From: Catellatospora bangladeshensis
Lineage (GTDB): Bacteria > Actinomycetota > Actinomycetes > Mycobacteriales > Micromonosporaceae
DNA length: 64,000 nucleotides
Assembly (NCBI RefSeq): GCF_016862575.1
Contig: NZ_BONF01000002.1
Location: forward strand, 62,001-126,000
Reading direction: 5' to 3'
Below the pieces are notes generated by a model. It made no database searches. It was not told where the DNA came from and saw only the letters and a list, made by a program, of their open reading frames with translations. A program made the position numbers and the translations under genes. This document shows, piece after piece, positions 9,075 to 35,012 of the stretch. Each line of letters starts with the position of its first letter. Positions within the stretch are counted from its first letter, which is position 1.

Positions 9075-9115
9075 CCCGCACCCGCCACCCCGCGGTGCTG
9101 TCCTACGGTGTCCCC

Positions 9116-9520: not shown

Positions 9521-9548
9521 CCCCGCCCCGCGCCCCTCTCTCCCGCGC

Positions 9549-9632
9549 CGATCTTGCGTGAACTGTGGGTGTGACACGGGCATATCGCCCATAAGGGCAA
9601 CACTTCGCGCAAGATCGACGCGATCTTGCGCG
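9549..9632 (+). repeat. CGATCTTGCG inverted repeat, family C copy 1
   Basis: Arms at 9549-9562 and 9604-9617 match over 13 of 14 bases, followed by a third partial arm (CGATCTTGCGC) to 9632. The second copy, in the opposite orientation at 41308-41391, shares the arms, the extra arm and much of the inner spacer, so this is an 84-base repeat family rather than a chance palindrome. Confidence 0.8.
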
Positions 9633-9660
9633 CCCCGCCCGGCACGGGCTGGGGGGTGGA

Positions 9661-9690
9661 TTGACACCTTGGAAATGTGGCGGCAATAAT
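9661..9690 (+). promoter_or_regulatory. Promoter of the GH9 cellulase gene
   Basis: A consensus TTGACA at 9661-9666 is followed after 18 bases by AATAAT at 9685-9690, a near-consensus vegetative promoter in an otherwise GC-rich region. Transcription would begin just before the CebR-type operator at 9704, about 100 bases ahead of the GTG start. Confidence 0.65.
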
Positions 9691-9703
9691 TCATGGGCGC
9701 AGA

Positions 9704-9717
9704 TGGGAGCGCTCCCA
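9704..9717 (+). promoter_or_regulatory. CebR-type operator (TGGGAGCGCTCCCA)
   Basis: The perfect 14-base palindrome TGGGAGCGCTCCCA is identical to the known binding site of CebR, the LacI-family cellulase repressor of Streptomyces and Thermobifida that is released by cellobiose or cello-oligosaccharides. It lies just downstream of the promoter of the GH9 gene, an expected position for repression. No cebR gene is in this window. Confidence 0.85.
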
Positions 9718-9792
9718 GACTTTTCCCAGCTTGCGGCTGTGCTTGCCGGTTTCTGATGCACCACCCGATCGCTTTCCTGGAAAGGATCCGCT

Positions 9793-12357
9793 GTGCGTAG
9801 ACCCGTTCTGATCGCGCTGGCCGCCGTGGCGGGGCTCGTGTCGACGAGCCTGACCGCGGCCGCCGCCTCGGCCGACCCGCCCGAGCAGATCGTCAACGGC
9901 ACCTTCACCTCCGGCCACGCCCCGTGGTGGGGCACCGGCAACATCACGCTCGACTCCAGCAGCGGCGAGCTGTGCGCGGACATCCCGGGCGGCACCACCA
10001 ACCCCTGGGACGTGATCATCGGCCAGGACAACATCCCGCTCGTCGCCGGTGAGACGTACGCCTACAGCTTCAAGGCCACCGCGGCGCCCGACCGCGTCGG
10101 CAAGGCGCTCATCCAGCTCCCGGTCGACCCGTGGACGCAGTACCTCGCCGCGAACCCGCTGATGACCGGCACTGCCACCGTCTTCTCGTACACCTTCACC
10201 GCGCCCGTCTCCCTACCGAACGCGCAGGTGGCGTTTCAGATCGGTGGCAGTGCCTCCCCCTGGCGGCTCTGCCTGGACGACATCTCGCTGAAGGGCGGTG
10301 CCGAGCCGGAGGTATACCAGCCGGACACCGGCCCGCGCGTCCGGGTCAACCAGGTCGGCTACCTGACCAAGGGCCCGAAGAACGCCACCGTGGTCACCGA
10401 GGCGACGGCTGCCCTGCCCTGGCAGCTGAAGAACGCCGGCGGCACGGTCGTGGCCAGCGGCGACACCACCCCGCGCGGCGTGGACGCCAGCTCCGGCCAG
10501 AACGTGCACTCGATCGACTTCAGCTCGTACGCGGTCGCGGGCACCGGCTTCACGCTGGTCGCCGACGGTGAGACCAGCCGCCCGTTCGACCTGGCCGGCA
10601 ACCTCTACGCGGGCCTGCGCGACGACGCGCTGAAGTTCTTCTACACCCAGCGCAGCGGCGTCGAGATCCTGGACGCGCTGCGGCCCGGCTACGGTCGCCC
10701 GGCGGGTCACGTCGGCGTGGCGCCGAACAAGGGCGACACCTCGGTGCCGTGCCAGCCCGGCGTCTGCGACTACTCGCTGGACGTGTCCGGCGGCTGGTAC
10801 GACGCGGGCGACCACGGCAAGTACGTGGTCAACGGCGGCATCTCGGTGTTCCAGCTCGTCAACGAGTTCGAGCGGGGCAAGTGGGCGGCCAGCGCCCAGC
10901 CGTTCCCGGACGGCCAGCTGAACCTGCCGGAGAGCGGCAACGGCGTGCCGGACATCCTGGACGAGGCGCGCTGGCAGCTGGAGTTCCTGCTGAAGATGCA
11001 GGTCCCGGCCGGTAAGCCGCTGGCCGGCATGGCCCACCACAAGATCCACGACAGCGAGTGGACCGGCCTGCCGCTGCTGCCGCACAGCGACGACAAGCTG
11101 CGCGAGCTGCACCCGCCGTCGACCGCGGCGACGCTGAACCTGGCCGCCGCGGCGGCGCAGGCGGCGCGGGTGTACGCGCCGTACGACGCCGCCTTCGCGG
11201 CCCGCAACCTGGCCGCGGCCAAGACCGCGTACGCGGCGGCCAAGGCGCACCCGGCGATCTACGCCAGCCCGTCCGACGGCACCGGCGGCGGCACGTACGA
11301 CGACGTCAACGTGACCGACGAGTTCTACTGGGCGGCGGCCGAGCTCTACCTGACCACGGGGGAGAGCGCCTACCTGACCGACGTCACCTCCTCGGCGCTG
11401 CACACCGCCGACGTGTGGAGCAGCAACGGCTTCGGCTGGCAGAGCCTGGCCGCGCTGGGCCGCCTCGACCTGGCCACCGTGCCCAGCGCCCTGCCGGGCC
11501 GGGCCGCCGTGCGCGCCTCGGTCGTGTCGGGCGCGGAGGAGTACCTGGCCGCGATCACGGCGCACCCGTACGGCGTGCCGTACCAGCCCGCGAACAACTC
11601 CTACGACTGGGGCTCCAGCAGCCAGGTGGCCAACAACCTGGTGGTGCTGGCCGCGGCGTACGACATCACCGGCGAGGACCGGTTCGCCGACGCGGCGGTG
11701 CAGGGCATGGACTACCTGCTGGGCCGCAACGCGCTGAACATGTCGTACGTGACCGGCTACGGCGAGGCCAACGCGCACAACCAGCACAGCCGGTGGTACT
11801 CGCACCAGCTCAACCCGGACCTGCCGAACCCGCCGAAGGGCACCCTGGCCGGCGGCCCGAACTCGTCCATCCAGGACCCGGTCGCGCAGCAGAAGCTGAC
11901 CGGCTGCGTGGGCCAGTTCTGCTACATCGACCACATCGAGTCGTGGTCCACCAACGAGCTGACCATCAACTGGAACGCGCCGCTGGCATGGGTCGCCGCC
12001 TTCCTGGCCGGCCAGGGTGACGGCACCGCCGCGCCCGCGCCGAACTGCAAGGTGACCTACACCAAGCACGCCCAGTGGCCGGACGGCTTCACCACGCAGG
12101 TCACCGTCAAGAACACCGGCTCCACCGCGATCAACGGGTGGACGCTGCGGTGGTCGTTCCTCGGCGCTCAGTCGGTCGAGAGCTCGTGGAGCGCCGCGTT
12201 CAGCCAGAGCGGGGCGACGGTGAGCGCCGCCAACCTGTCCTGGAACAAGGTGATCAAGCCCGGCCAGTCCGTGACCTTCGGGTTCAACGGCGACGTGGCG
12301 ACCGGCCCCAACCCCGACCCGGCCCTGTTCACCCTGAACGGGCGGGCCTGCTCCTGA
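9793..12357 (+). CDS. Secreted GH9 endoglucanase/cellulase with CBM4/9 and CBM2 domains
   Basis: This 854-residue secreted enzyme cleaves beta-1,4-glucan. Domains in order: signal peptide (about 1-27), CBM4/9-like domain (about 28-170), CelD-type Ig domain (starting [10 protein letters not shown], about 178-265), GH9 catalytic domain (about 270-740) and a C-terminal CBM2 (about 752-854, starting [15 protein letters not shown]). Catalytic features are visible: DAGDHGKYV with Asp337 and Asp340, the HNQHSRW motif, and the family signature [12 protein letters not shown] with the acid Glu at about 722. The Ig-GH9 arrangement is the one seen in theme B and D GH9 enzymes. The start is a GTG, and a promoter and CebR-type operator lie directly upstream, so induction by cello-oligosaccharides is expected. 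Confidence 0.95.
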
Positions 12358-14134: not shown

Positions 14135-16030
14135 ATGGCCCTCCCCACCCGCCCCGACCGGGGCGCCCTGCTGCTCGCCGCCGGTGCGCCGCTCGCCCTG
14201 GCGTGGCTGATCGACCACGGTCTGGCCGTGACGCGGGCGGAGGTCGTCGCCGGCGGCGCGTTCACGCCCGGCACCGGCCTCGGCCCGCGACTGCTGATCT
14301 GGGTGCCGCTGTGGGCGTTCGCGATGGCGGCGGCCGAGCTGGTGGCCGCGGGGCGGGCACGCTCGATCCCGATCCGCGCCGGAGCGGCGCTGCGGGAGAC
14401 AGCACGCCGTGCCGAGGACGTGCTGCTCTGGGCACTGCCCTATCTGGTCACCGCAGCGGCGGGCTACGGCGTGTGGTGGCTGCTCGCCGGGAGCAACCTG
14501 ACCATCTTCGGCGTGGGGCCGCTGTTCATGATCGTGACGCCGCTGCTCGCCTGGCAGGCGTACCGGCTGGTGGTCCGGCTGCCCGCGCTGCCGCTGCGGC
14601 TGCTGGAGAACGCCGGGCGCAAGGCGTCGGCCCAGGCGGTCGCGCTGCGGGCCGGGCGCCTGGTGCCGAACGGGCCGCTGCCGCTGCTGCTGGTCCTGCC
14701 CCTGCCCGTCGCGCTGGTGGTCGATCTGGCCGGCCGTGCGGCGGCGGGCGCGCTGCCGGTGGCGTACGCGCCGGTCGCGGTGGGCCTCACCTCGGCCGTG
14801 CAGCTGCTGCTCGTCTCCCTGATCGTCGCGGGGCAGGCACGCGAGGTGGTGGGGCGTTACCTGGCGCCCCGCGAGGCCGACGATCCGGGCGCGGCCGCGA
14901 ACCTCGGCTGGGCGGACGAGAGCCTGACCCGGCTCGCGGGCCCGGGGCCGCGGCCGCTGCGGCGCGCCTGGCTGCTCGCGTACACCCTGCCGGTGCTCCT
15001 GCTGGCCGGGGCCGCGCTCGCCGACCCGCTGGCCCGCCCGGTGCTGTCCGCGGTGGACACCAAGCAGGACCAGATCTGGCCGTATGCGATGGGGCTCACC
15101 GGGGCGGGTCTGCCGGTGCTCGTCGACAACGAGGCGGTCACGCGCTGCCACGACAGGGCCTGCACGAGCCGGACCAGGACGAAGATCGTCCAGCGCCGGC
15201 TCGACGCGGCCACGGTCACCCCGGACGGCCGCGTCCTCATGCTGTACGTGCCGGAGCTGGGCTACCAGGAGACGGGCGAGCCGGTGCTCACCGCCTGCGA
15301 CGCCGCCGACCGGTGCACGGAGCGCACCCTCGGCCTCGAGACCTACGGCGGCAGCCTGCACGAGATCGCCGTGGCCGCCCTGCCGGAGGACGCCGTGCTC
15401 GTGGTCGGGGAGGTCTACTGGCGCTCGTCCTCCACCGACCGGGACAACGACCCGGTGGTCGCCTGGTGGTGCCGCACGACGTGCGCCGAGATCCCGGTCG
15501 AGCGCCCGGCGGGCGCGTCGTGGCCGGCCGCGCCGTCGGACTTCCAGGTCGGGTACGACGAGCAGGGTGGCCCGGTGCTCTTCTGGACCGACGATCGCGG
15601 CTGGGGCGGCGAGCCGGACGAGGTGTTCCGGGCGGCCTGCGTGACGCCGCTGTGCGACCGGCTCGCGGTCGAATCGCTGCCCCCGGTGTGGCGCGACCTG
15701 CCGGGTGTGCCGAACCTGCAGGCCATGGGCCTCGACACGCAGGGCCGCCTCGTCGTCGTGGTGTCCCGGCCCGGCCGGGAGAGCTGCATGGAGTGGTGCG
15801 TAGGGCTCCCGCCGAACCCGGACCCGTATGTCCTTTCAGTGCTGCGCTGCCTCGATGCCCACTGCCAGACCGGCACGGCCGCGTTCACCTGGGCGGAGGC
15901 CGGCCCGCTGGATCTTCCCCGGATGATGGTCGCCGCGGACGACGACGGCCCCGTCCTGGTGCTGGACGGGGCCGTGACGACCTGCGTGGCGCGCTGCGCG
16001 CGGTTCGAGACGGTCAGTGGCAGGCGGTGA
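14135..16030 (+). CDS. Polytopic membrane protein with cysteine-pair repeat domain, unknown function
   Basis: I do not recognise a family. The first half (about residues 1-300) has seven or so hydrophobic segments. The second half (about 305-631) is hydrophilic and contains seven closely spaced cysteine pairs (CHDRAC, CDAADRC, CRTTC, CVTPLC, CMEWC, CLDAHC, CVARC). They are spaced roughly 30-60 residues apart, each near a short hydrophobic beta-like strand. This periodicity suggests a disulfide-braced beta-propeller outside the membrane; that is inference from the pattern. The tail overlaps the convergent phosphoesterase gene by 17 bases. Confidence 0.65.
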   Translation: MALPTRPDRGALLLAAGAPLALAWLIDHGLAVTRAEVVAGGAFTPGTGLGPRLLIWVPLWAFAMAAAELVAAGRARSIPIRAGAALRETARRAEDVLLWALPYLVTAAAGYGVWWLLAGSNLTIFGVGPLFMIVTPLLAWQAYRLVVRLPALPLRLLENAGRKASAQAVALRAGRLVPNGPLPLLLVLPLPVALVVDLAGRAAAGALPVAYAPVAVGLTSAVQLLLVSLIVAGQAREVVGRYLAPREADDPGAAANLGWADESLTRLAGPGPRPLRRAWLLAYTLPVLLLAGAALADPLARPVLSAVDTKQDQIWPYAMGLTGAGLPVLVDNEAVTRCHDRACTSRTRTKIVQRRLDAATVTPDGRVLMLYVPELGYQETGEPVLTACDAADRCTERTLGLETYGGSLHEIAVAALPEDAVLVVGEVYWRSSSTDRDNDPVVAWWCRTTCAEIPVERPAGASWPAAPSDFQVGYDEQGGPVLFWTDDRGWGGEPDEVFRAACVTPLCDRLAVESLPPVWRDLPGVPNLQAMGLDTQGRLVVVVSRPGRESCMEWCVGLPPNPDPYVLSVLRCLDAHCQTGTAAFTWAEAGPLDLPRMMVAADDDGPVLVLDGAVTTCVARCARFETVSGRR

Positions 16031-20704: not shown

Positions 20705-20776
20705 GGGCGTGTAGCTCAGTGGGAGAGCATCCGCCTTACAAGCGGAGGGTCGGCAGTTCGAACCTGTCCACGCCCA
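20705..20776 (+). tRNA. tRNA-Val, anticodon TAC
   Basis: A full cloverleaf can be drawn: acceptor stem GGGCGTG with CACGCCC, D stem GCTC/GAGC, anticodon stem TCCGC/GCGGA around CTTACAA (anticodon TAC), T stem GGCAG/CTGTC around TTCGAAC, discriminator A. The CCA end is not encoded. It decodes GTA, a rare codon in this GC-rich genome. Confidence 0.95.
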
Positions 20777-20782
20777 CGGTCC

Positions 20783-20882: not shown

Positions 20883-21287
20883 TCAGGACTGATCAATACG
20901 GATCATGGCGATGCCTGGCCGGACCTTGGCCACCGAGGCGAAGTCCTCGTCAGCGTGTAGCAAGGTCAGCCGCTGCTCGGCCGCCGTGAGCGCGATGACG
21001 ATGTCCATCGGAGACGGGCCGCGGTGGTGGCCGATCCGGATGAGGTCACGCTGCACGGCGAGCACCTGACGCCACGGATCGTCGATCGGCGGACACCGGC
21101 CGAACGTCTGCCGGAGCACCGCGAAGAACGGCTCGTAGTCGCGATCGGCGCGGACCGACACCATGAGCTCCGACTCGACCGGTGAAGTGATCGCGACCAG
21201 TCCCTGGGCCACGTATGTCGTCCACGGCTCTCCGACCTGCCCGCGCAGCAGCCGCCAGACTGCCGAGGTGTCAGCCAGGTAGGTCAC
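20883..21287 (-). CDS. vapC: VapC-like PIN-domain ribonuclease toxin
   Basis: The 134-residue PIN-domain protein is the toxin of a type II toxin-antitoxin pair; VapC toxins cut specific RNAs, often initiator tRNA or rRNA. Acidic active-site residues are visible at the expected places: Asp6 in YLADTSA, Glu40 in VESELMVS, Asp95 in PSPMDIVIA and the Asp113/Asp115 pair in HADEDFA. Its GTG start overlaps the antitoxin stop codon (GTGA), showing translational coupling to vapB upstream. Confidence 0.88.
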   Translation of the reverse strand: MTYLADTSAVWRLLRGQVGEPWTTYVAQGLVAITSPVESELMVSVRADRDYEPFFAVLRQTFGRCPPIDDPWRQVLAVQRDLIRIGHHRGPSPMDIVIALTAAEQRLTLLHADEDFASVAKVRPGIAMIRIDQS

Positions 21288-23234: not shown

Positions 23235-24836
23235 TCAGCCGAAGGCGGTGAGGAAGCGGTCGCGGAAGGCGTCCATGCGCCAGACGGGGGCGCCGGGGCC
23301 GGGCCGGAGGCCGTCCTGCCAGGACCACGCCGCGACGCGATCGAGCAGGGCGGGATCCCTGGCGACGATGGTGACGGGGGCGTCGCGGCTGGCCCGCTGG
23401 CCGGTCACCGACGGCGAGGGCTGGTGGTCGCCCAGGAAGACCAGCACCAGGTCGTCGCCGCCGTAGGTCTCGACATAGGAGATCAGGGCGTTCAGGGAGT
23501 ACGCGATCGCGTTGCGGTACGCGGACCGCACGCGCGTGCGGTCGCGCTGCTCGACGATCTCGGCGGGGTCGTCGGAGCCGGACGCCGCGGCGTAGACGGA
23601 GCCGTCGCCGACCGCGTCCCAGTCGAGCATGCGCGGCACCGGCTCCCAGGGCGAGTGGCTGGAGATCAGCGGGATCACGGCCATCACCGGCAGGTGTCCC
23701 GGCTGCCGTTCCCGCTGCTGGAAGGTGTGCAGCGTGTACTGGTCGGGCATGGTCGCGAAGCTGTAGCGCGGCCCGGCGTAGCCGAGGTCGGGGGCGGTGT
23801 AGACCTGGTCGTAGCCGTACACCGCGCCCTCGGGCCACGGGGTGGTGGTGGCCGGCATGACGGCGACGGTGCGCCAGCCGTCCTGCGCGAACAGCCTGGG
23901 CAGGGTGAGCCGGTCACTGGCCAGCAGGGTCTTGTAGCGCTGCTGGTTGGTCACCCACAGCCCGGACAGCAGCGTCGACTGCGCCAGCCAGCTCCCGCCG
24001 CCGGTCGTCGGCGAGGTGAGCCAGGCGCTGCGCGCGGCGTACCCGGCCGCCCGCAGCCGCGCGTACCCGTCGTCGAGCACCGCGCCGACCTGCGGGGACA
24101 GCTCGGGGTCGGCCAGCGCCACCTTGCCGTAGCTCTCGATGAACGCGACGACCACGTCCTTGCCGCGCAGCGCGGTGAGCGCCTCCCCGGCGGGGGTGCC
24201 GCGGTACGCGTCGGTGGACAGCTGCTCGGCGAACGTCTGCCGGTCGCCCGCGCCCCGTTGCAGCTGGTGCGCCTGGTCGTAGGCGTCGTGCGCGGCGACC
24301 GGCACGCCGGGCACGAGCTGCGCCCCGGCCAGGGCCAGCGCCAGCCACGCGGCGGCCAGCGCCGTGACGGCGCTCGCGGCGGGTCGCCGGTGCGCCACGG
24401 CGAGCCGGGCCACCCGCCCGAACGCGACGGTGACCAGGGCGAGCACGCCCACGGCGAGCAGGACCGCGGCGGCGACGGCGGCCCACATGAGGGCGCTGCC
24501 GTACGACTGCCCGACGTAGTCCGCGCCCGCGACCAGGAACGGCCAGTCCAGCACGGGTTCGAAGGGCCGGTCGAGCACGGCGGAGAAGCCGAGGCTGATC
24601 CCCTTGACGATGCTGAGCAGGCCCAGCACGACGCCCAGCGTTACCACCGCGATCCGCCTGCCCCGGGGCGGCAGCACCAGCACGACGGCCAGCGCGACCA
24701 GCCCGTCGAGCGGGATGCGCACGAACGCGGCCGGGCTCAGCCGCCCCAGCTCGCTCGGCGCCACCAGCAGCACGAACACGAACACGAAGGCCAGCACCAG
24801 CCCGGTCCGGGCCAGGATCTGCCGCAGCCGCCCCAT
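23235..24836 (-). CDS. Membrane-anchored sulfatase/phosphotransferase-fold protein
   Basis: The 533-residue protein has about five N-terminal membrane helices (to about residue 185) followed by an external domain of the sulfatase/alkaline-phosphatase fold, the architecture of LtaS-type glycerol-phosphate transferases. The metal-site start (VVVAFIESYGKVAL) is present, together with the nucleophile region SPTTGGGSWLAQSTLLSG, the SHSPWEP motif and the late metal ligands FLGDHQPSPS. Its ATG directly follows the stop of the GTP cyclohydrolase II gene, so it is the last gene of the operon starting at 29708. It could transfer or remove phosphate or sulfate groups on an exported envelope product; the substrate is unknown. 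Confidence 0.8.
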   Translation of the reverse strand: MGRLRQILARTGLVLAFVFVFVLLVAPSELGRLSPAAFVRIPLDGLVALAVVLVLPPRGRRIAVVTLGVVLGLLSIVKGISLGFSAVLDRPFEPVLDWPFLVAGADYVGQSYGSALMWAAVAAAVLLAVGVLALVTVAFGRVARLAVAHRRPAASAVTALAAAWLALALAGAQLVPGVPVAAHDAYDQAHQLQRGAGDRQTFAEQLSTDAYRGTPAGEALTALRGKDVVVAFIESYGKVALADPELSPQVGAVLDDGYARLRAAGYAARSAWLTSPTTGGGSWLAQSTLLSGLWVTNQQRYKTLLASDRLTLPRLFAQDGWRTVAVMPATTTPWPEGAVYGYDQVYTAPDLGYAGPRYSFATMPDQYTLHTFQQRERQPGHLPVMAVIPLISSHSPWEPVPRMLDWDAVGDGSVYAAASGSDDPAEIVEQRDRTRVRSAYRNAIAYSLNALISYVETYGGDDLVLVFLGDHQPSPSVTGQRASRDAPVTIVARDPALLDRVAAWSWQDGLRPGPGAPVWRMDAFRDRFLTAFG

Positions 24837-25457
24837 TCAGCGGGCCAGGTGCAGGGTGTGCGCGGCGCGGCGGGCCTTGGTGGCCAGGTAGCCGGCGTTC
24901 GCGGGGGACAGGTGCACGCCCGTGGGGATCCGCTCGGCCACCGTCACGCCGAGCCGGGTGAGCTGGTCGGCCTTGTCGGGGTTGTTGCTGAGCAGGGCGA
25001 CCCGGTCCACGCCGAGCGCGCCGAGCATCTGCGCGGCCACCGTGTAGTCGCGGGCGTCGGCGTCGTGCCCGAGCGCGAGGTTCGCCTCGTAGGTGTCCAG
25101 GCCGGTGTCCTGCAGCGCGTACGCGTCGAGCTTGGCGTACAGGCCGATGCCGCGGCCCTCCTGGCGCAGGTAGAGCAGGTAGCCCCCGGCGGTGGCGATG
25201 CGCTCGGCCGCCTCGCGCAGCTGCGGGCCGCAGTCGCAGCGCTCGCTGCCGAACACGTCCCCGGTCAGGCACTCGCTGTGCGGGCGCACCAGCGGGACCG
25301 GCCGGTCCGCCGCGCCGAGCGCCAGCGCCAGGTGTTCGCGGCCGTCGACCAGCCCGGCGAACGTGATCACGCGCGCGGTGACGGTGTAGCCGTCGTGGAA
25401 GCGCAGCGGCACCGGCACCTGCGTACGGACGGTCGCGGCGGGCGGCATCGTGGTCAT
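24837..25457 (-). CDS. GTP cyclohydrolase II paralogue
   Basis: GTP cyclohydrolase II opens GTP to 2,5-diamino-6-ribosylamino-4(3H)-pyrimidinone 5'-phosphate. The 206-residue length suits a stand-alone RibA domain. Zinc ligands Cys63, Cys74 and Cys76 are in HSECLTGDVFGSERCDCG, the catalytic arginine region is RQEGRGIGLY, and Tyr113 in DAYALQD corresponds to E. coli Tyr105. Tyr at this place predicts the ordinary product; in the S. coelicolor paralogue SCO6655, which I recall makes the formylated intermediate, it is Met. There is no ribB, ribH or ribE here, so this is probably not the riboflavin enzyme of the cell. It overlaps the reductase gene by four bases. Confidence 0.88.
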   Translation of the reverse strand: MTTMPPAATVRTQVPVPLRFHDGYTVTARVITFAGLVDGREHLALALGAADRPVPLVRPHSECLTGDVFGSERCDCGPQLREAAERIATAGGYLLYLRQEGRGIGLYAKLDAYALQDTGLDTYEANLALGHDADARDYTVAAQMLGALGVDRVALLSNNPDKADQLTRLGVTVAERIPTGVHLSPANAGYLATKARRAAHTLHLAR

Positions 25458-26161
25458 CGGTCTCCCTGGTCTGCGCTGCCGAAGCGCGGCGACAGCGCGT
25501 AGCGCAGCAGCACGACGTCGCCGATCTGCCGGACCTCGGCGAGTTCCGCCCGGCGGCCCGGCCGGAACGGGAAGTGGCCGTCGCCGACGAAGCGGCTGGC
25601 CCGCGAGTCGCCGACGAAGAACGGGGCCACCACCAGGTGCAGCTCGTCGGCGAGGTCGGCGGTGAGGAACTGGGTGTGGATGGTGCCGCCGCCCTCCACC
25701 ATCAGCCTGCTCACGCCGCGGGTGTGCAGGTCCTTGGTGACCCAGTTCAGGTCGACGGGCTCGCCGCCGTCCACCACGGTGGCGACCTCGCCGAGCCTGC
25801 GCCGGGCGTGCTCGACGCGGCGGCTGGCGCAGTACACCAGCTTCTCCACGTCGCCCGTGGCGAAGAACGCCGCGGCCGGGTCGAGCATGGCCTGGGCGGT
25901 GACGGTGATCTTCATGGGGGAGGGCGGCAGGCCGCGGGCCACCCGCGCGTCGCGGCGGGCCTGGTCGCGCACCATCAGGCGCGGGTTGTCCCGGCGCACC
26001 GTACGCGCGCCGACCAGGATCGCGTCGCAGCTCGCGCGCACCTCGTCGACCCGGTCGAAGTCGGCGTCGTTCGACAGCAGCAGCCGCTCGTCGCTCGCGG
26101 CGTCGAGATAACCGTCGATCGACATGCTGCAGCTGAGCAGGACGTACGGGCGGTCAGACAT
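25454..26161 (-). CDS. RibD C-terminal (DHFR-like) domain reductase
   Basis: The 235-residue protein has the RibD C-terminal/dihydrofolate-reductase fold without a deaminase domain. Key segments are VLLSCSMSIDGYLDAAS (substrate loop), DAILVGARTVRRDNPRL (the conserved Gly-Ala-x-Thr and Arg-x-Asn-Pro), and the NADPH-binding LMVEGGGTIHTQFL. Stand-alone members reduce the ribosyl side chain of the GTP cyclohydrolase II product to ribityl, using NADPH. The gene overlaps both its neighbours in the operon, and its pairing with the GTP cyclohydrolase II paralogue makes this the likely reaction. The ATG at 26161 is preferred over GTG 26170. Confidence 0.85.
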   Translation of the reverse strand: MSDRPYVLLSCSMSIDGYLDAASDERLLLSNDADFDRVDEVRASCDAILVGARTVRRDNPRLMVRDQARRDARVARGLPPSPMKITVTAQAMLDPAAAFFATGDVEKLVYCASRRVEHARRRLGEVATVVDGGEPVDLNWVTKDLHTRGVSRLMVEGGGTIHTQFLTADLADELHLVVAPFFVGDSRASRFVGDGHFPFRPGRRAELAEVRQIGDVVLLRYALSPRFGSADQGDR

Positions 26162-27170
26162 CGCTTCCACCTACCCGCGCGGTGCCCGGCGCAATCATGC
26201 GGGCCAGCAGCACGGCCGCCCCCGGCAGCGCGGCGACCAGGACCAGTACGCCGTACGTCACGGCGGTGGCGACGCCCTGCGTGGCGGTCATCCCGGCGGC
26301 GCCGAACGCCCACGCCGCGACGCCCTCGCGCGGGCCCCAGCCCGCGAAGCTGACCGGCAGCGCCATCGCCAGCAGGGCGAGCTGGGTCAGCGGCACCAGC
26401 AGCGGCAGCGGCGCGGTCGCCCCGGCGGTGCGCGCGGCGAGCAGGAACAGCACCAGGTGCCCGGCCACGCCGAGCGCCGACACGGCGACGACGCCCACCA
26501 GCACGCGGGGGGCGGACAGCGCGGTGCGCAGCTCGGCGATATTGCGGCGCAGCCCGTCCCGCCAGCGGGCGGGGGGCCGGGTGGACCCGGCACGGGTCAG
26601 CGCCTGCCCGGCCAGCCAGCCTGCCGCGCCGAGCAGCGCGGCCACCACCAGCACCAGCGGCATGTACGGCCGCACCGGCGAGGGCAGCACCAGCAGCAGC
26701 ACCGTCGTGGCGGCCAGCTGCACGGCCAGGCCGATCACGCGCTCGGCGACCACGGCGCGCACGGCCAGGCGCACGTCGCTGATGTCGAGCCCGTGCCGCA
26801 GCGCCCGGTGCACGTCGCCGGCCACCCCGCCGGGCAGCGTGGTGTTGAGGAAGATCGCGTGGTAGTACGCCGCGACGGCCCGGCCCAGCGGCAGCCGCAC
26901 GCCGAGCCCGCCCGCTACCAGGCGCCAGCGCCAGGCGCAGCAGACCGTGGTCAGCACGCTGACGGCGAACGCGGCGGTCAGCGCGGCCCGGTCGATCCGG
27001 CGTACCCCGTCGAGGAACGGGCCGGTGCCCACCTGCCACAGCAGCAGCGCCAGGATGGCCAGGCCGCCGAGCAGGCGGGCCCACCGCCAGACCTGTCGCG
27101 CCGCCGTACCCGGTGGCCGGGTGGGGTTCCCCGTCAAGGCGCCGCGCAACACGATCTCCCGTCCAAGCAC
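26154..27170 (-). CDS. Lysylphosphatidylglycerol synthase-type transmembrane protein (flippase-like)
   Basis: The 338-residue protein has about eight membrane helices of the UPF0104 / LPG-synthase TM family. The conserved signature YYHAIFLNTTLPGGVAGDVH is at about residues 100-120 and the late motif SFAGWGPREGVAAWAF at about 280-295. Members are linked to flipping of lipid-linked sugars or aminoacyl lipids, but many are uncharacterised. It overlaps the reductase gene by eight bases. The GTG start at 27170 has a GGAAG ribosome site. Its neighbours (glycosyltransferase and phosphotransferase) support a role in moving a lipid-linked intermediate across the membrane; this is inference. Confidence 0.82.
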   Translation of the reverse strand: MLGREIVLRGALTGNPTRPPGTAARQVWRWARLLGGLAILALLLWQVGTGPFLDGVRRIDRAALTAAFAVSVLTTVCCAWRWRLVAGGLGVRLPLGRAVAAYYHAIFLNTTLPGGVAGDVHRALRHGLDISDVRLAVRAVVAERVIGLAVQLAATTVLLLVLPSPVRPYMPLVLVVAALLGAAGWLAGQALTRAGSTRPPARWRDGLRRNIAELRTALSAPRVLVGVVAVSALGVAGHLVLFLLAARTAGATAPLPLLVPLTQLALLAMALPVSFAGWGPREGVAAWAFGAAGMTATQGVATAVTYGVLVLVAALPGAAVLLARMIAPGTARVGGSDV

Positions 27171-27231
27171 TTCATCTTCCTAGGGGTAACGGCCCCGGGT
27201 GTCTGTGGATTTATACACAGAGCGCCCATCA

Positions 27232-28329
27232 TCAGGTGGCCTCGCGCGTCACCGCCACCCCTGAGAGGACGGCAGCGGCCCGCCGGGCGGTGTCACCCCA
27301 TCCGATGAGCGTGTCACGGCGGCCGAGGGCCGCCCGGCGCAACCGGTGCCGCAGCGCCGCATCGGTCAGCCAGCTTCGCAGCGCGGCGGCCAGTGCGGCC
27401 GCATCGCCCGGTGGCACCAGCAGCGCGGGCGGGCTGCCGTCCGGGGCGCGGCCGACAGCCTCGGGCAGCCCGGCGACATCGCAGGCCAGCACCGGGATAC
27501 CCCGGGCCAGCGCCTCGGTGACGACCATGCCGTAGCTCTCCCCCCGCGAGGGCAGGACGAGCAGATCAGCGTTCGTGTACGCCGCGTCGAGCGTCGGACC
27601 CGTCAGCGGCCCCAGCAGGGCGATCCGGCGCGCGGCCGGGTGCGCGCGCAGCGCCGCCACGAAGGCCGGATCACGGTCGAGGGAACCGGCGAAGACGCAG
27701 GTCCAGGGCAGATCGTCCAGCCGGGACAGGGCGTCGGCCAGCACGTCCTGTCCTTTGTGCGGGGCGAGTGCGGCCACGCAGAGCAGCCGCGATCCGGCCA
27801 CCGACCCGGGCGCGGCGGGGGCGGCGTCGACGCCGGGGACGGCGACGTGGACCAGGGCGGGCGGCAGCGCGTACCGCTCGATCAGGCGGGTGCGGCACCA
27901 CCGGCTGACGGTGAGCACGGCGGCCGCCGCCCGCAGGGCGCGGCCCTCCTCGATGTCCAGGTCGGCGGCTTCGTCGCCGAACACCATGTGCGCGAGCACG
28001 ACCAGCCGCAGCCGGTCCGCGCGGGCCGCCAGCACGGCCCCGGCCCCGGCGGCGACGAGCCCGTCCACCAGCACGACCGCGTCCCCGGGCAGGGCGTCCA
28101 GCCGCTGCGCCAGCGCGGCGAGCACCGTTCCCGGCGGACGCGGCCACCCGCCCGGCAGGGCATGCTCGCGCACCGCCCACCCGAGGGCGGACAGGCCGTC
28201 GCACAGCCTGCGGTCGTAGTGGTTGCCGCCGCTCGGCGCGGCCGGATCGTCGATGTCGCCGGGGAGCACGACGTGCACCACCGGGTCGACGGTCGCGGAC
28301 GGCCCGCCGGCGTCCGGGCCCGAGGTCAC
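27232..28329 (-). CDS. GT4-family glycosyltransferase
   Basis: The 365-residue protein has the two-domain GT-B fold. The C-terminal half shows the GT4 hallmarks: [18 protein letters not shown] at the domain start, [20 protein letters not shown] with the Glu-x7-Glu pair, then [18 protein letters not shown]4 enzymes are retaining and use nucleotide sugars; donor and acceptor are unknown. The gene overlaps the end of the PTPS-like gene by four bases (translational coupling) and is followed after 61 bases by the flippase gene. It has no membrane segment, so it acts on the cytoplasmic side. Confidence 0.88.
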
Positions 28330-28724
28330 AGGGTGCGCTCGTAGCTCGCCCAGGCGATGTGGGACTCGTGCAGGGTGACCGTGATGCCGGCGAGCTCACG
28401 CGCGCCGTCGCCGAGCGCGCCCGCATGGGCCTGCTCGGCGAGCCGGTCCGCGATCACCTTCGCCAGCACCTCGGTGGTGGTGTTCAAGCCCCCGAGCGCG
28501 GGGACCTCGTCGAGGTTGCGCAGATTGAACTCGCCCACCACGGCGTTCAGCTCGCGGGCGGCGGCGGCGATGTCGACGACGATGCCGTCGGCGTCCACGT
28601 CCGCGCGGCGGAACGTCGCGTCCACCACGAACGTGGCGCCGTGCAGGCGCTGCGCGGGCCCGAAGACCTCACCGCGGAAACTGTGGGCGATCATCATGTG
28701 GTCGCGGACGGTCACGCTGAACAC
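28326..28724 (-). CDS. 6-pyruvoyltetrahydropterin synthase/QueD homologue with altered active site
   Basis: This 132-residue protein has the length and pattern of the PTPS/QueD fold. His14 (IAHSF) and His28 (RLHGA) match two zinc ligands, but the third ligand in the usual HGH motif is Ala30. The catalytic Cys four residues before His28 is Ala24, and the catalytic His of the LDH motif is Glu73. The late Glu120 (LHES) that anchors the pterin ring is kept. Normal zinc-dependent PTPS or QueD chemistry is therefore unlikely, while binding of a pterin- or pyrimidine-like ligand remains possible. The gene starts three bases after the dehydrogenase gene ends and overlaps the glycosyltransferase gene by four bases. 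Confidence 0.82.
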
Positions 28725-28727
28725 CGG

Positions 28728-29708
28728 TCACTCCTTGCCGTAGGTGATGACGTGGCACAGGGCCGCCAGGGTGCCGTCGGCCAGCCTGGCCAGCACCTCC
28801 GGCAGCTGCTCGAAGCCCGACTCGCCGGACAGCAGCGCGTCGAACACCGGGTCGCGCAGCAGGTCCAGGGCCAGCGCGAGCCGGTCGGCGTGCGAGCGGC
28901 GCGCCGCGCGGGCCGGGGACACCGTGCCCACCTGGCTGGCGCGGATGCTCAGCCGCCCGGAGTGGAACTCCCCGCCCAGCCGCAGGCCGACCTCGCGGTC
29001 GCCGTACCAGCTCAGCTCGATCACGGTGCTGTCGGGGGCGAGCAGCTCCAGGCCGCGCTGCAGGCCCGCGGCCGACGCGCTCGCGTGGAACACCAGGTCA
29101 CAGCCGCCGTCGGCGTCCTGCGGAAGGCGGAACGGGATGCCGAGGGCGCCGGCGAGCGCGGCCCGGCCCGGATCGGCGTCGACCAGCTGCAGCCGTACGC
29201 CGGGCAGGCGGGACAGCAGGATCGCGGCGCAGGCGCCGACCATGCCCGCGCCGACCACGGCGATCCGGTCGCCGACCAGCGGCCCGGCGTCCCAGAGCGC
29301 GTTGACCGCGGTCTCCACGGTGCCCGCGAGCACCGCCCGGCGGGCGGGCACCCCGTCGGGCACCGGCACCACCGCGCTCGCGGGCACGACGTAGCGGGTC
29401 TGGTGCGGGTAGAGGCAGAACACGGTGCGGCCGAGCAGGTCAGCCGGCCCCTGCTCGACGACGCCGACGTTGAGGTAGCCGTACTTCACCGGGCCGGGGA
29501 AGTCGCCCTCCTGGAACGGCGCGCGCATGACCGCGTACTGGCTCTCGGGCACCTCACCGCGGAACACCAGCGTCTCGGTGCCCCGGCTGATGCCGGTGTG
29601 GACGGTGCGCACCAGCACCTCGTCCGGGCCGGGCGTGGGCACCGGCACCGGCCGGATCTCGCCCGCGCGTGGCGAGGCGATCCAGAAGGCCCGCGCGTAG
29701 GATGCCAT
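28728..29708 (-). CDS. Medium-chain dehydrogenase/reductase
   Basis: The 326-residue protein is a medium-chain alcohol dehydrogenase-like enzyme. Its N-terminal catalytic domain includes VRTVHTGISRGTETLVFRG, a pattern shared with BchC-like members, in which the usual catalytic zinc Cys is absent (Ser in this position). A Rossmann domain has VVGAGMVGACAAILL at about residues 168-182, with Asp after the second strand (LVDADP), favouring NAD. The product is probably an alcohol-aldehyde or carbonyl oxidoreductase on a small cluster intermediate. It is the first gene of the operon; 44 bases separate it from the divergent CDP-alcohol phosphotransferase gene, so promoters overlap. Confidence 0.85.
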   Translation of the reverse strand: MASYARAFWIASPRAGEIRPVPVPTPGPDEVLVRTVHTGISRGTETLVFRGEVPESQYAVMRAPFQEGDFPGPVKYGYLNVGVVEQGPADLLGRTVFCLYPHQTRYVVPASAVVPVPDGVPARRAVLAGTVETAVNALWDAGPLVGDRIAVVGAGMVGACAAILLSRLPGVRLQLVDADPGRAALAGALGIPFRLPQDADGGCDLVFHASASAAGLQRGLELLAPDSTVIELSWYGDREVGLRLGGEFHSGRLSIRASQVGTVSPARAARRSHADRLALALDLLRDPVFDALLSGESGFEQLPEVLARLADGTLAALCHVITYGKE

Positions 29709-29752
29709 CGATATCTCCTCAGCCGATCTCCACCGAACCTAACGGAGGCGCC

Positions 29753-30523
29753 GTGCCGTCGCTGCGACCGGGCCCGGTGATCGGCCTGATCGTCCAGTTC
29801 GCCCTGCTGGTGGTGCTCGCCTCGACGACGGGGCTGGGCAGCGTGGGCTGGCTGGCCGGCATCGGGTACGGCATCGCACTGTGCCTGCTGGTCGACCGGG
29901 CGCTGCGGACCGCGCGCCGGAACGGGTTCGGCCCCGCCGACCGGGTCACGCTGAGCCGGGCGCTGCTCGTCGGCTGCGTCACCGCGCTGGTCGTCGACTC
30001 CTTCGCCCGCGAGATCGCAGTGCCGGTGCTGGTCGGGGTCACCGTGGTGGCGCTGGTGCTCGACGCGGTCGACGGCCGGGTGGCCCGGGGGACCGGCACC
30101 GACTCGGCGTTCGGCGCGCGCTTCGACATGGAGGTCGACGCGTTCCTGATCCTGGTGCTGAGCGTGTACGCCGCGCCCCGGTTCGGGCTCTGGGTGCTCG
30201 CCATCGGCGCGATGCGCTACGTGTACGTGGTGGCGACCTGGGTGCTGCCGTGGCTGAACGGGCGGCTGTTCCCGCGCTACTGGCGCAAGGTGGTGGCCGC
30301 CGTCCAGGGCATCGTGCTCTGCGCCGCCTCCGCTGACCTGCTGCCCCGCTCCCTGGTCGTGATCGCCCTCGGGGCCGCGCTCGCCCTGCTCACCGAGTCC
30401 TTCGGCCGCGACGTCGTCTACCTCTTCCGCCACCGCGCCACCACCCGGGCGCTCGCCCCCGTCGCCGCCGCGCCGGAGGCCGGCGGCAGAGTGGGGGATC
30501 AGAGCGAGCGGGTGCGGGCGTAG
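29753..30523 (+). CDS. CDP-alcohol phosphatidyltransferase family enzyme
   Basis: The 256-residue integral membrane enzyme carries the complete family motif, DG-x2-AR-x8-G-x3-D-x3-D, at about residues 107-129 (DGRVARG then GARFDMEVD). Members transfer a phospho-alcohol moiety from CDP-linked donors to an alcohol acceptor, making phospholipids or inositol-phosphate compounds. Around six membrane helices are apparent. The start GTG 29753 follows GGAGG by four bases. It is divergent from the pterin-like operon with only 44 bases between, so the two are probably regulated together. The 3' end overlaps the FkbM gene by 25 bases tail-to-tail. Confidence 0.9.
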   Translation: MPSLRPGPVIGLIVQFALLVVLASTTGLGSVGWLAGIGYGIALCLLVDRALRTARRNGFGPADRVTLSRALLVGCVTALVVDSFAREIAVPVLVGVTVVALVLDAVDGRVARGTGTDSAFGARFDMEVDAFLILVLSVYAAPRFGLWVLAIGAMRYVYVVATWVLPWLNGRLFPRYWRKVVAAVQGIVLCAASADLLPRSLVVIALGAALALLTESFGRDVVYLFRHRATTRALAPVAAAPEAGGRVGDQSERVRA

Positions 30524-31254
30524 ACGTCGCCGGAGCGGCCGAGCGGGCGGAAGCGCTGGTCGAGCAGGTGAGCCAGTTCGGCGGCGGTGAGCCAGTGGCC
30601 GCTCGCGAAGCGCATGGTCTCGACGGGGGCGTAGTTGTACTCGTAGCGGCCCGCGCCGAGCTGCTCGACCAGCTCCAGTGAGGTCAGGGCGGCGTCGTGG
30701 GCGGGCGGCAGGTACTCGAAGGACAGGGCGCGCAGCGGGCGGGACAGGCCGCGCAGCACGTCCGTCTCGAAACCCTCCACATCGATCTTGCAGAAGGCCG
30801 GTTCACCGTGCGCGGCGATCAGGTCGTCGAGCGTGACCACCTCGACCTCGACCGCGCGGTCCCAGCGTACGGCGGCGAAGCGGTCGTCGGTGCTGGTCAC
30901 CGTCTCGATCCACTCGTGCGACATACTGGACACGGTCGGGGTGGCCGAGGACAGGGCCAGGCTGGCCGTGCCCGGCCGCGCGCCCACCGCGATGGGCAGG
31001 ATCGCCACCTGCGGGTCGCGCCCGAAGAACAGCCGCAGCACGCGCAGGCAGTCCGGCTGCGGCTCGACCGCGACCACCCGGGCGCCCAGCCGCCGCCACG
31101 GCCGCACCCGGCTGCCCACGTGCGCGCCGATGTCGAAGGCGACGTCACCGGGGCCGAGGAACTGCCCGTAGAAGCGGCGCATCCGCCGGTGCCGGCCGGG
31201 GATGCCGTGATACATCGCGAGAGACCGGGTGATCCCCCAGGCGCGAGCGAGCAT
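30499..31254 (-). CDS. FkbM-family methyltransferase
   Basis: The 251-residue S-adenosylmethionine-dependent methyltransferase has motif I AFDIGAHVGSR at about residues 40-50. VVAVEPQPDC, the FkbM-specific pair VEVVTLDDLIAAHG and CKIDVEGFETDVLRGL, and a C-terminal LSFEYLPP follow. FkbM enzymes O-methylate sugars or polyketides. Upstream codons continue to GTG 31278, but the ATG at 31254 is the better start. It is convergent with the CDP-alcohol phosphotransferase gene and is possibly part of the same surface-product locus. Confidence 0.85.
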   Translation of the reverse strand: MLARAWGITRSLAMYHGIPGRHRRMRRFYGQFLGPGDVAFDIGAHVGSRVRPWRRLGARVVAVEPQPDCLRVLRLFFGRDPQVAILPIAVGARPGTASLALSSATPTVSSMSHEWIETVTSTDDRFAAVRWDRAVEVEVVTLDDLIAAHGEPAFCKIDVEGFETDVLRGLSRPLRALSFEYLPPAHDAALTSLELVEQLGAGRYEYNYAPVETMRFASGHWLTAAELAHLLDQRFRPLGRSGDVYARTRSL

Positions 31255-31326
31255 GGCCGAGCCTAACCCGCCCGGCACCCCACGACAGCGCCCTCGATCT
31301 CGTGGCGGCTCGCCGCGTGGGTCCTG

Positions 31327-31374
31327 GATCTAGATGAGCTGTTGTTGCCCGGGTGACCACAAAGCTTCTAGATC
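31327..31374. repeat. Imperfect intergenic palindrome with GATCTAGA ends
   Basis: GATCTAGA at 31327-31334 pairs with TCTAGATC at 31367-31374, and the inner bases pair partially around CCCGGG. It occupies the divergent gap before the kinase-like gene. No second copy was found in the window, so it is not assigned to a repeat family. Confidence 0.45.
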
Positions 31375-31445
31375 TGCTTCGCCGCGCATCGCGCGCCGGT
31401 GCAAACCGGTTGGGTACGCGGCGCGCGGGTGGCATCGTGAGCTGC

Positions 31446-32372
31446 GTGATCGAGCTGCCCGACCTGATGCGCCGCACCGCCGTGAGCCGGGGCGCCCACG
31501 ACTGGCTCGCGTCCCTGCCGGAGCGGGTCGCCGACGTGTGCGCCGACTGGGCGCTGACCCCCGGTGAGGCGCTGACCGGCGGGTCGGCCGCGCTGGTGCT
31601 GCGAGTCCAGGCAGCCGACGGCACCGACGCGGTGCTGCGCCTCGCCCCGCCCGGCGACGGCTTCGCGGGCCAGGTGCGCACGCTCGAAGCGGCGAACGGC
31701 CACGGTTACGTGCGGCTGTACGCGTACGACGAAGGCCGCGACGCGGCCCTGCTGGAACCGCTGGGCCCGGCCCTGCCCGCGGCCGGGCTGCCCCCGGAGG
31801 AGGTCCTCGACGTGCTGGCCGCGACGCTGCGCGAGGCGTGGCGGGTGCCGCACCCGCCCGGCGCGACCGTGCCGCCCGGCGAGGACAAGGCCGGCACCCT
31901 GCACGAGCTGATCGTGCAGCTGTATCCGGAGACCGGCGAGCCGTGCTCCCCGGCGGTGCTCGGCCGGGCGCTGGACTACGCCCGCCGCCGCGCCGACGCC
32001 TTCGACGTGACCGGCAGCGTGGTCTGCCACGGCGACGCGCACCCGGACAACGCCCTGGCGGTGCTCACCCCGCGAGCGGGCGCCGAGTCCGGGTACGTCT
32101 TCGTCGACCCGGACGGCTTCCTCTGCGACCCCGGCTACGACCTCGGGGTCGCGGTGCGGGGCTGGGAGTCCGAGCTGCTGGCGGCGGCCGATCCGGTGGC
32201 GCTGCTGCGCGGCTGGTGCGCCCGGCTGGCCACGGCGACCGGGGTGGACCCGCAGGTGATCTGGGAGTGGGGCTTCATCGAGCGGGTCTCGTCGGGGCTC
32301 TACATGATCCGCCACGGGCAGCCGGAGAGCGGCCGGGCTTACCTGGCCTCGGCGGAGCGCCTGCTGGGCTGA
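31446..32372 (+). CDS. APH-like small-molecule phosphotransferase
   Basis: The 308-residue protein has the aminoglycoside/choline kinase fold. The catalytic loop VVCHGDAHPDNAL (about residue 195 onward) and the metal-binding segment FVDPDGFLCDPGYDLG are intact. The nucleotide-binding N-lobe has LTGGSAALVLRVQAADG. The layout resembles streptomycin 6-phosphotransferase-like proteins, but family members act on many hydroxylated substrates and no antibiotic cluster surrounds it. A resistance role is possible but not supported by context. The start is GTG 31446, or GTG 31437 three codons earlier. Confidence 0.8.
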   Translation: MIELPDLMRRTAVSRGAHDWLASLPERVADVCADWALTPGEALTGGSAALVLRVQAADGTDAVLRLAPPGDGFAGQVRTLEAANGHGYVRLYAYDEGRDAALLEPLGPALPAAGLPPEEVLDVLAATLREAWRVPHPPGATVPPGEDKAGTLHELIVQLYPETGEPCSPAVLGRALDYARRRADAFDVTGSVVCHGDAHPDNALAVLTPRAGAESGYVFVDPDGFLCDPGYDLGVAVRGWESELLAAADPVALLRGWCARLATATGVDPQVIWEWGFIERVSSGLYMIRHGQPESGRAYLASAERLLG

Positions 32373-34133: not shown

Positions 34134-35012
34134 ATGAGCGAGCGGACCACGGCCGCCGTCCCGCCAGCGGCGCCTGAACTGACCGGGACCGGGGATCTCG
34201 GGCTGTTCGGGCCCGGCTCGGTCACCTGGCGCGTGCACTCCGAGCCGGTGCTGTGGGTGGCGGGCGTCCGGTCGCTGTTCCTGCAGGCGCTGCACCCGAG
34301 GGCGATCGCGGGCGTGGTGCAGAACTCCAGCTACAAGGTCGAGCCGTGGTCGCGGCTGCTGCGCACCGCGGACTACGTCGGGACCGTCATCTTCGGCACC
34401 ACCCAGCAGGCCGCCGCGGCGGGCCGCCGGATCCGCGGCATCCACGCCCGGATGCGCGGGGTGGACCCGCGCAGCGGGGAGACGTTCCGCATCGACGAGC
34501 CGGAGCTGCTGCGCTGGGTGCACGTCACCGAGGTCGAGTCGTTCGTGAGCACCGCCCGGCGGGCCGGGCTGGAGCTGACCGACGCGGACGTGGACGGCTA
34601 CTACACCGAGCAGCGGCGCGCGGCCGAGCTGGTCGGGCTGGACCCGTCGACGGTGCCCGGGACCCGCGCGGAGGTCGCCGCGTACTACCGGCGGCTACGG
34701 CCGCAGCTCGCGCTCACCCGGGAGGCGCTGGACACGCTGTTCTTCCTGATGGCGCCGCCGCTGCCGTGGCACCTGGGGCTGACCCCGGCCCGGCTGGTGT
34801 ACACCGGGCTGGCCGCGACCGCGTTCGCGCTGCAACCGGGCTGGGCGCGGCGGGTGTACGGCACGCTCGGCCTGCCCACCACGGACCTGTCCGCCTCGGT
34901 GTCGGTGCGCGGCCTGCGCCTGGCCACGCGGCTGCTGCCGGAGCGCTTCCAGCACGGCCCCATCTACCGCGACGCGATGGCCCGGGTGGCCGCCCGTTCC
35001 GCTGAGAGTTAA
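34134..35012 (+). CDS. MpaB/DUF2236-family oxygenase-like protein
   Basis: This 292-residue helical protein belongs to the DUF2236 group, which includes fungal MpaB and is related to the rubber-cleaving latex clearing protein (a heme b oxygenase). Typical segments are WRVHSEPVLWVAGVRSLFLQ, ALHPRAIAGVVQNSSY, DYVGTVIFGTTQQA and LLRWVHVTEVESFV, where conserved His residues in ALHPRA and WVHV are candidate heme ligands. The substrate is unknown. The TAA stop codon lies inside repeat B copy 3. Confidence 0.85.
   Translation: MSERTTAAVPPAAPELTGTGDLGLFGPGSVTWRVHSEPVLWVAGVRSLFLQALHPRAIAGVVQNSSYKVEPWSRLLRTADYVGTVIFGTTQQAAAAGRRIRGIHARMRGVDPRSGETFRIDEPELLRWVHVTEVESFVSTARRAGLELTDADVDGYYTEQRRAAELVGLDPSTVPGTRAEVAAYYRRLRPQLALTREALDTLFFLMAPPLPWHLGLTPARLVYTGLAATAFALQPGWARRVYGTLGLPTTDLSASVSVRGLRLATRLLPERFQHGPIYRDAMARVAARSAES

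Follow-up and report, generated by a model that had tools for sequence, protein, structure and literature searches.

What could a bacterium make with a GTP cyclohydrolase of the riboflavin type, a homologue of PTPS, a glycosyltransferase and a set of lipid-type membrane enzymes that are encoded side by side? The question is raised by a locus of Catellatospora bangladeshensis (genome size 8.83 Mb) on contig NZ_BONF01000002.1, within the 64,000 nucleotides from position 62,001 to 126,000 that are called the window here. Seven packed minus-strand genes (29708-23235) encode a dehydrogenase (DH), the PTPS homologue (PTPS), a family 4 glycosyltransferase (GT4), a flippase-like membrane protein (FLIP), a RibD-type reductase (RED), a GTP cyclohydrolase II paralogue (GCH2) and a sulfatase-fold membrane enzyme (SULF), and a CDP-alcohol phosphotransferase gene (CDPAP) is divergent from them. 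That this is a real, functional and conserved locus is virtually certain, and chance is an inadequate explanation, because the gene order is kept over many genera and a phylogenetic profile supports the grouping. As to its product, we tentatively favour, with somewhat less than even confidence, a biosynthetic locus in two modules: a GTP-derived heterocycle would be made and glycosylated by a soluble core, then linked to lipid and exported by a membrane module.

The conservation can be read from loci collected by their PTPS gene. A nine-row PTPS alignment scanned over genome contigs found at least 525 stretches encoding a PTPS relative; the best 80 of these at least 525 were kept and, with 53 loci from a class-wide search and 17 regions from earlier matches, gave 150 loci (L034-L183). 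The class-wide search contributed 53 of its 58 places, the other five being the window, G204 and G008 (covered already) and G587 and G357 (left out). A PTPS match is present in 148 of the 150 loci, and 107 of these were retained, with a PTPS that is 44% or more identical and with left and right flanks of no less than 8 and 7 kb, respectively; the remaining 41 have short flanks or a lower identity. Many of the loci are close relatives, and L104 and L145, identical in the core and GCH2 rows, are both counted; presence of a gene means a tblastn match at E 1e-5 within the stretch fetched, and neighbours are the next genes among those mapped. On this basis DH and GT4 occur in all 107 loci, FLIP in 102, CDPAP in 100, a SAM methyltransferase gene (MT) in 99 and GCH2 in 96, followed by RED and a creatininase-family gene (CREA) with 58 each, SULF with 40 and an FkbM-family methyltransferase gene with five. 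PTPS is flanked by DH as the next gene 5' and by GT4 as the next gene 3' in 107 of 107 loci; GT4 lies within 600 bases of it in every case and DH in 105, the exceptions being L159 (1.4 kb) and L172 (6.7 kb). Past DH, the next mapped gene is CDPAP in 93 loci (79 divergent, 14 on the same strand), at no more than 600 bases in all 93. SULF is adjacent to CDPAP in 34 loci, of which 27 have the two genes 600 bases or less apart.

The profile covers 394 genomes of the class, with thresholds of E 1e-20 for each of PTPS, CDPAP and SULF and E 1e-50 for FkbM. PTPS is carried by 57 genomes, CDPAP by 56 and SULF by 40, and 53 genomes have both PTPS and CDPAP (Fisher 4.8e-57, relatedness ignored); among the 138 genera, 23 share both genes, out of 26 with PTPS and 25 with CDPAP, and this second value (8e-21) is safer though still not fully independent. 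All 40 SULF genomes have CDPAP and 38 have PTPS, including genomes in which SULF is unlinked. Genome G466 has CDPAP, SULF and FkbM on contig C4, as one same-strand block (L187, about 8690-12070), and PTPS on contig C3. Co-occurrence in other actinobacterial genomes, which the initial annotation had named beforehand as a check, is thus borne out by both the flanked loci and the profile, and its joining of GTP-derived chemistry to lipid-type enzymes remains the best reading of genes that co-occur this widely. The FkbM gene, which it had included in the set, is a rare accessory: it is found in three of the 394 genomes, all with PTPS, and its few occurrences among the 107 loci rule it out as a core member.

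The entry reaction is the step for which precedent is nearest. GCH2 would convert GTP into 2,5-diamino-6-ribosylamino-4(3H)-pyrimidinone 5'-phosphate (DARoPP). The window protein scores 189.6 bits with PF00925 (cut-off 23.3) and 259.1 with NF001591 (cut-off 148), and reaches 190.2 with TIGR00505, below the cut-off of 205.85. Three zinc cysteines and a catalytic Tyr105 in E. coli numbering are what we take to define GTP cyclohydrolase II (GCH II); Cys63, 74 and 76 are present in the window, where Tyr113 aligns with Tyr105 of the E. coli enzyme (2bz0), and the three cysteines, Asp134 and Arg136 are kept in at least 110 of 112 loci examined. The tyrosine was counted in 115 rows including the window, obtained from the 148 loci by dropping 32 without GCH2, L082 (the match misses the residue) and L127 (the GCH2 belongs to a rib-type operon). 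It is present in 52 rows, none of which has CREA in the locus. The other 63 rows have Met, His, Leu, Gln or Ser at this place, and 62 of them have CREA, 61 inside the locus and L163 in a copy 13 kb away. The remaining row, L044 of Pseudonocardia bannensis, has a GCH2 (14193-14759) that is divergent in sequence, with Arg136 replaced by His and the neighbours of the metal motif changed, and this copy looks decayed. In the GCH2 tree the non-Tyr rows with CREA form one group (support 88).

From these sequences, the Tyr form of GCH2 and the non-Tyr form with CREA appear as if they were two routes to one diaminopyrimidine nucleotide. In the relatives with a non-Tyr GCH2, a formyl intermediate (AFRPP) would be made, and the creatininase-family enzyme would take off the formyl group. 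SCO6655 of Streptomyces coelicolor, with Met at the place of the tyrosine, reportedly stops at the formyl product. In Sinorhizobium, the creatininase-family protein BrbF converts AFRPP into DARoPP by deformylation, and the authors of that study had not found the AFRPP-making enzyme in the organism (PMC9478397). Given the BrbF precedent and the formyl product reported for SCO6655, both locus types would reach DARoPP, and by this biochemical analogy the locus GCH2, alone or with CREA, probably supplies it. The window genome encodes a second GCH2 paralogue of the Tyr form, 66% identical, near the start of contig C43 (988-1596; L002/L114), with no other locus genes within the 16 kb fetched.

The steps past DARoPP, and the lipid linkage, we infer indirectly. 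Where present, RED would turn the ribosyl into a ribityl chain; the PTPS homologue, a zinc-site-deficient T-fold protein, and DH would remodel this 2-amino-4-oxo ring compound, to which GT4 would attach a sugar and, outside the window, MT a methyl group. CDPAP would then couple a CDP-activated lipid to the product as a whole or to a phospho-alcohol portion, FLIP would carry the lipid-linked product to the other side of the membrane, and SULF, as an LtaS-like enzyme, would pass a phospho-head-group to an outer acceptor. We hold it an even chance that a ring compound derived from DARoPP is the target of GT4 and MT, and CDPAP, FLIP and SULF may act on the same product, a proposal to which we give slightly under half of our confidence. 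The molecule itself could be of a new envelope class that many actinobacteria display on the outer side of their membrane, a phospholipid or an LtaS-transferred phospho-head-group with a GTP-derived ring, diaminopyrimidine or pterin-like, that is glycosylated and in most cases methylated, although in this full form the proposal is speculative and on balance unlikely.

PTPS and QueD (6-carboxytetrahydropterin synthase) presumably work with a zinc site of three His and a catalytic Cys. Like them, the locus protein matches PF01242 and keeps His14, His28 and Glu85, the last of which we take to be the expected ring anchor; unlike them, the window protein has Ala30 at the place of the third zinc His and Ala24 at that of the Cys. 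Ala or Val stands at the former and Ala at the latter in 133 of 133 core loci, all of which keep Glu85, and the best NCBIfam score is 36 bits against 89.25 needed. In a remote family of loci (f18, same phylum, other class), nine of nine have the zinc His and also lack the Cys. Because zinc His and Cys are missing, the homologue is not a working PTPS, and PTPS or QueD activity is ruled out. The only solved relative found is SCO6650 (PDB 3d7j), which aligns end to end, has the same HGA motif and is said to be without zinc in its structure. The DH model folds as a medium-chain dehydrogenase with no telling closest match, and NCBIfam, PDB and fold searches do not name its substrate. MT is missing in the window and in both Catellatospora loci (L040 and L054), and among the 107 loci L040 and seven others are without it; no homologue was found in the window genome at E 1e-3, an empty answer that alone shows little, and no solved structure matched it. 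The genes listed in the initial annotation therefore stand as a set, to which the conserved MT of the relatives, absent here and not known to it, has to be added.

The membrane enzymes resemble known families to different degrees. CDPAP has the complete motif DxxDGxxAR(x8)GxxxDxxxD, presumably the signature of CDP-alcohol phosphotransferases, and its key residues (D132, D135, G136, A139, R140, G149, D153 and D157, in the numbering of the long open reading frame) are invariant in 14 of 14 aligned sequences. SULF, described at first as a sulfatase-fold membrane enzyme, keeps that fold family (PF00884) and can be refined to LtaS-like: with a model of mean pLDDT 82.1, Foldseek ranks 1 to 14 in the PDB are all LtaS, LtaP, GacH or the Bacillus subtilis teichoic-acid entry 2w8d. 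The best match, LtaP, has E 3.8e-10 and probability 1.00, but TMq is 0.38 and TMt 0.48. Across 20 aligned rows S282 and D470 are invariant and E234 and H471 nearly so, which makes these residues candidates for the Glu, Thr/Ser and Asp-His of the metal site and nucleophile of LtaS-type enzymes. From its model, SULF looks like an LtaS-type phospho-alcohol transferase, sharing with LtaS, LtaP and GacH a membrane anchor and a sulfatase-fold domain, while differing from them in its identity of about 13%, TM-scores below 0.5 and its attachment to this locus.

Several observations weigh against assigning all of these genes to one pathway. Six of the 107 loci lack GCH2, RED and CREA alike, RED is absent from 49, SULF lies in the locus in only 40, and 19 of the 57 PTPS genomes have no SULF at E 1e-20. 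The core occurs with no CDPAP at threshold in G355 (whose locus is without FLIP too), G543 and G622, and with a weak CDPAP homologue (37%) in G491, while three genomes (G337, G481 and G509) have CDPAP without PTPS at threshold. The association of the tyrosine with CREA comprises too few events for a test, because only three to four changes fall on the core tree: on a tree of DH, PTPS and GT4 there are four changes of the residue and three of CREA, which leaves two to four independent pairs and a sign test p of 1. The CREA of L051 scores below the cut-offs, with 39.8 of 180 bits for the ArfB model and 137.7 of 172 for the MftE model. An unlinked creatininase homologue, 58% identical to CREA, is present in the Tyr-type genome of the window itself (contig C58, L184 2122-2889), so that such genes also occur outside the non-Tyr genomes and linkage alone follows the rule. 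Finally, four of four tested f18 genomes are without CDPAP at E 1e-10. As separate observations, the C58 gene adjoins an NsdA-type regulator gene, with an FxLD-system methyltransferase gene a few kb off, and in G509 a CDPAP homologue (39%) adjoins a FLIP homologue (38%; L189 9694-14719).

Family f18 comprises nine loci with RED, DH, PTPS and GT4 in that order, at 31-43% identity, and in at least three of them a methyltransferase gene lies behind GT4 (Pfam-tested in L116). Since this core occurs without CDPAP, the soluble part is either the older one or able to exist by itself. All nine f18 genomes have one full-length GCH2 away from the PTPS locus, in a frame of 416-443 amino acids, a length as expected of RibBA, and G041 has two further weak GCH2 matches. 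At L116 (5965-7530) FolB and acyltransferase genes are divergent from the core operon, as is a gene of an MFS transporter, and the first two might connect the locus of the remote family with pterins and lipids. The f18 loci and the three genomes with a core but no CDPAP speak for a rival explanation in which the soluble core gives a free small molecule of the pterin or pyrimidine type (a pigment, cofactor or antibiotic) that is secreted or stays in the cell, with FLIP, CDPAP and SULF serving a separate envelope lipid and sharing with the core only neighbourhood and ancestry; MFS transporter genes inside L050 and beside L116 would suit such a molecule. On the other hand, CDPAP and SULF track PTPS over the 394 genomes even when unlinked, and CDPAP, the gene next past DH in most loci, always lies close to it, and we consider this explanation rather unlikely.

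A teichoic-acid-like envelope polymer, for which SULF and CDPAP would act on a polyol phosphate while GTP-derived chemistry would contribute no more than a small decoration or the ribityl unit, appears improbable. It would agree with the resemblance of SULF and CDPAP to the LtaS/PgsA pair and with their frequent adjacency, and GT4 and FLIP would fit as well, but ribitol obtained via GTP would be costly, many loci have no RED, and the presumed ring anchor Glu85 of PTPS is kept in every core locus.

RED is also central to the explanations that stay closer to riboflavin. Its PF01872 match covers residues 8-221 of 238, with no deaminase domain, and among NCBIfam models it comes nearest to TIGR01508, an archaeal-type reductase, although its 138.1 bits do not reach the cut-off of 186.45; a Streptomyces RED query in 16 genomes returned mostly RibD-type matches of 30-40% identity. 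As RED occurs in only 58 of the 107 loci, a ribityl product is not general, and the ribitylamino-pyrimidine first proposed as the product cannot be extended to the locus type as a whole. GCH2, RED and the creatininase-family enzyme of the relatives mirror the first steps of the riboflavin pathway from GTP to DARoPP (RibA and the RibD reductase domain, archaeal ArfA/ArfB/ArfC, and BrbF; PMC9478397). Unlike that pathway, the locus is without a deaminase domain and lumazine synthase and has its genes next to those for GT4, a flippase and lipid-type enzymes. The initial annotation was correct that no lumazine synthase is encoded at the locus, the only PF00885 match of the genome being on contig C67, in a riboflavin-type operon with GCH2 and apart from the locus; riboflavin synthase, which it also reported as absent, was not searched for.

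An intracellular redox cofactor akin to 8-ribityl pterins or deazaflavins is quite improbable: 2,5-diamino-6-ribitylaminopyrimidinone phosphate would be a natural precursor, and the PTPS-like protein and DH might close and adjust a second ring, but GT4, FLIP and CDPAP point outward and RED is not universal. A backup or specialised flavin supply, in which a second GCH2 and a reductase of riboflavin-family type would feed the normal pathway, is very improbable, since the separate C67 operon speaks against a riboflavin supply and makes the locus probably dispensable for riboflavin, RED has no deaminase domain, lumazine synthase is not encoded nearby, and PTPS, GT4, FLIP and CDPAP would be left unexplained. 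Toxoflavin and deazapurine biosynthesis also branch off GTP cyclohydrolase products, and deazapurines use PTPS-type enzymes; to our knowledge, neither system has a set of flippase, CDP-alcohol phosphotransferase and LtaS-like enzyme.

Many Streptomyces loci have the order CDPAP, DH, PTPS, GT4, MT, FLIP, CREA, GCH2, which fits the numbering of S. coelicolor, and we infer that the SCO6650-SCO6655 region is the same locus type; in contrast to the window, the readable GCH2 copies of these loci have Met for Tyr, CREA lies beside them and RED is often absent. The two proteins had been named in the initial annotation as a PTPS homologue and a GTP cyclohydrolase II, identities confirmed by the 3d7j match for SCO6650 and by the listing of SCO6655 under that name. 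By the numbering, SCO6652 should be MT. SCO6655 expression anticorrelates with predicted flux (-0.61) within a list of genes most of which rise in stationary phase (PMC2853524), and a mycelial-stage table gives 0.8, 4.3 and 4.1 for SCO6652, its column heads lying outside the part seen (PMC3610822). These values fit, but do not show, a late or developmental role.

At least 525 stretches of one genome collection and 57 of 394 genomes of the class encode the PTPS relative, yet the open-access literature searched, which largely excludes subscription journals, gave no description of the locus or of a product. Two of its proteins, SCO6650 and SCO6655, are known individually, and the locus as a whole combines entry chemistry of the riboflavin type with glycosyl and phospho-lipid enzymes. 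The connection that the profile draws between such an entry reaction and lipid and LtaS-like enzymes would put GTP-derived heterocycles to a new use, and the locus gives a pathway context to SCO6650, a zinc-site-deficient T-fold protein of solved structure, and to a group of creatininase-family genes.

In the window, the nine open reading frames are present and all have the codon-position GC bias of real genes. Pfam agrees with the families first named, except for the dehydrogenase, which has only a sub-threshold Pfam match and is placed by its modelled fold. The seven fused genes and their single longer gap were described correctly: DH and PTPS are separated by 3 bases, PTPS and GT4 overlap by 4, GT4 and FLIP are separated by 61, FLIP and RED overlap by 17, RED and GCH2 overlap by 4, and GCH2 and SULF, the last gene of the operon, abut with a gap of 0. 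The divergent gap of 44 bases between DH and CDPAP holds with a CDPAP start at GTG 29753, which is most likely the start, with ACGGAGG directly upstream; the mechanical reading frame begins at 29669. The FkbM gene adjoins CDPAP and overlaps its 3' end by 25 bases. A promoter scan found no promoter and two terminator-like sites.

Table 1. Genes of the locus and their positions in the window.
Feature	Position	Strand	Description
SULF	23235..24836	-	several N-terminal membrane-type helices and alkaline-phosphatase/sulfatase-fold domain, LtaS-like; PF00884
GCH2	24837..25457	-	GTP cyclohydrolase II paralogue, Tyr113 form; PF00925, 189.6 bits
RED	25454..26170	-	RibD C-terminal-type pyrimidine nucleotide reductase without deaminase domain; PF01872, 136.6 bits
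FLIP	26154..27170	-	LPG_synthase_TM/flippase-like membrane protein; PF03706, 98.8 bits
Gap	27171..27231	-	61 bases; site of the SAM methyltransferase gene (MT) in most relatives
GT4	27232..28329	-	family 4 glycosyltransferase; PF00534, PF13692
PTPS	28326..28724	-	T-fold PTPS homologue, SCO6650 relative; PF01242
DH	28728..29708	-	medium-chain dehydrogenase/reductase; sub-threshold matches and modelled fold
CDPAP	29753..30523	+	CDP-alcohol phosphotransferase, full catalytic motif, divergent; PF01066
FkbM-family methyltransferase	30499..31278	-	rare accessory; PF05050

The flanking genes of the window are matched at the two Catellatospora loci. Beside the FkbM gene, a plus-strand gene (31353-32372) resembles APH_6_hur aminoglycoside/hydroxyurea kinases (PF04655, 51.7 bits) and is also present at both of these loci, and a further plus-strand gene (34134-35012) encodes an MPAB/Lcp-type oxygenase domain (PF09995). 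Downstream of the operon, a plus-strand tRNA-Val gene (20705-20777) adjoins a minus-strand PIN-domain gene (20883-21287).

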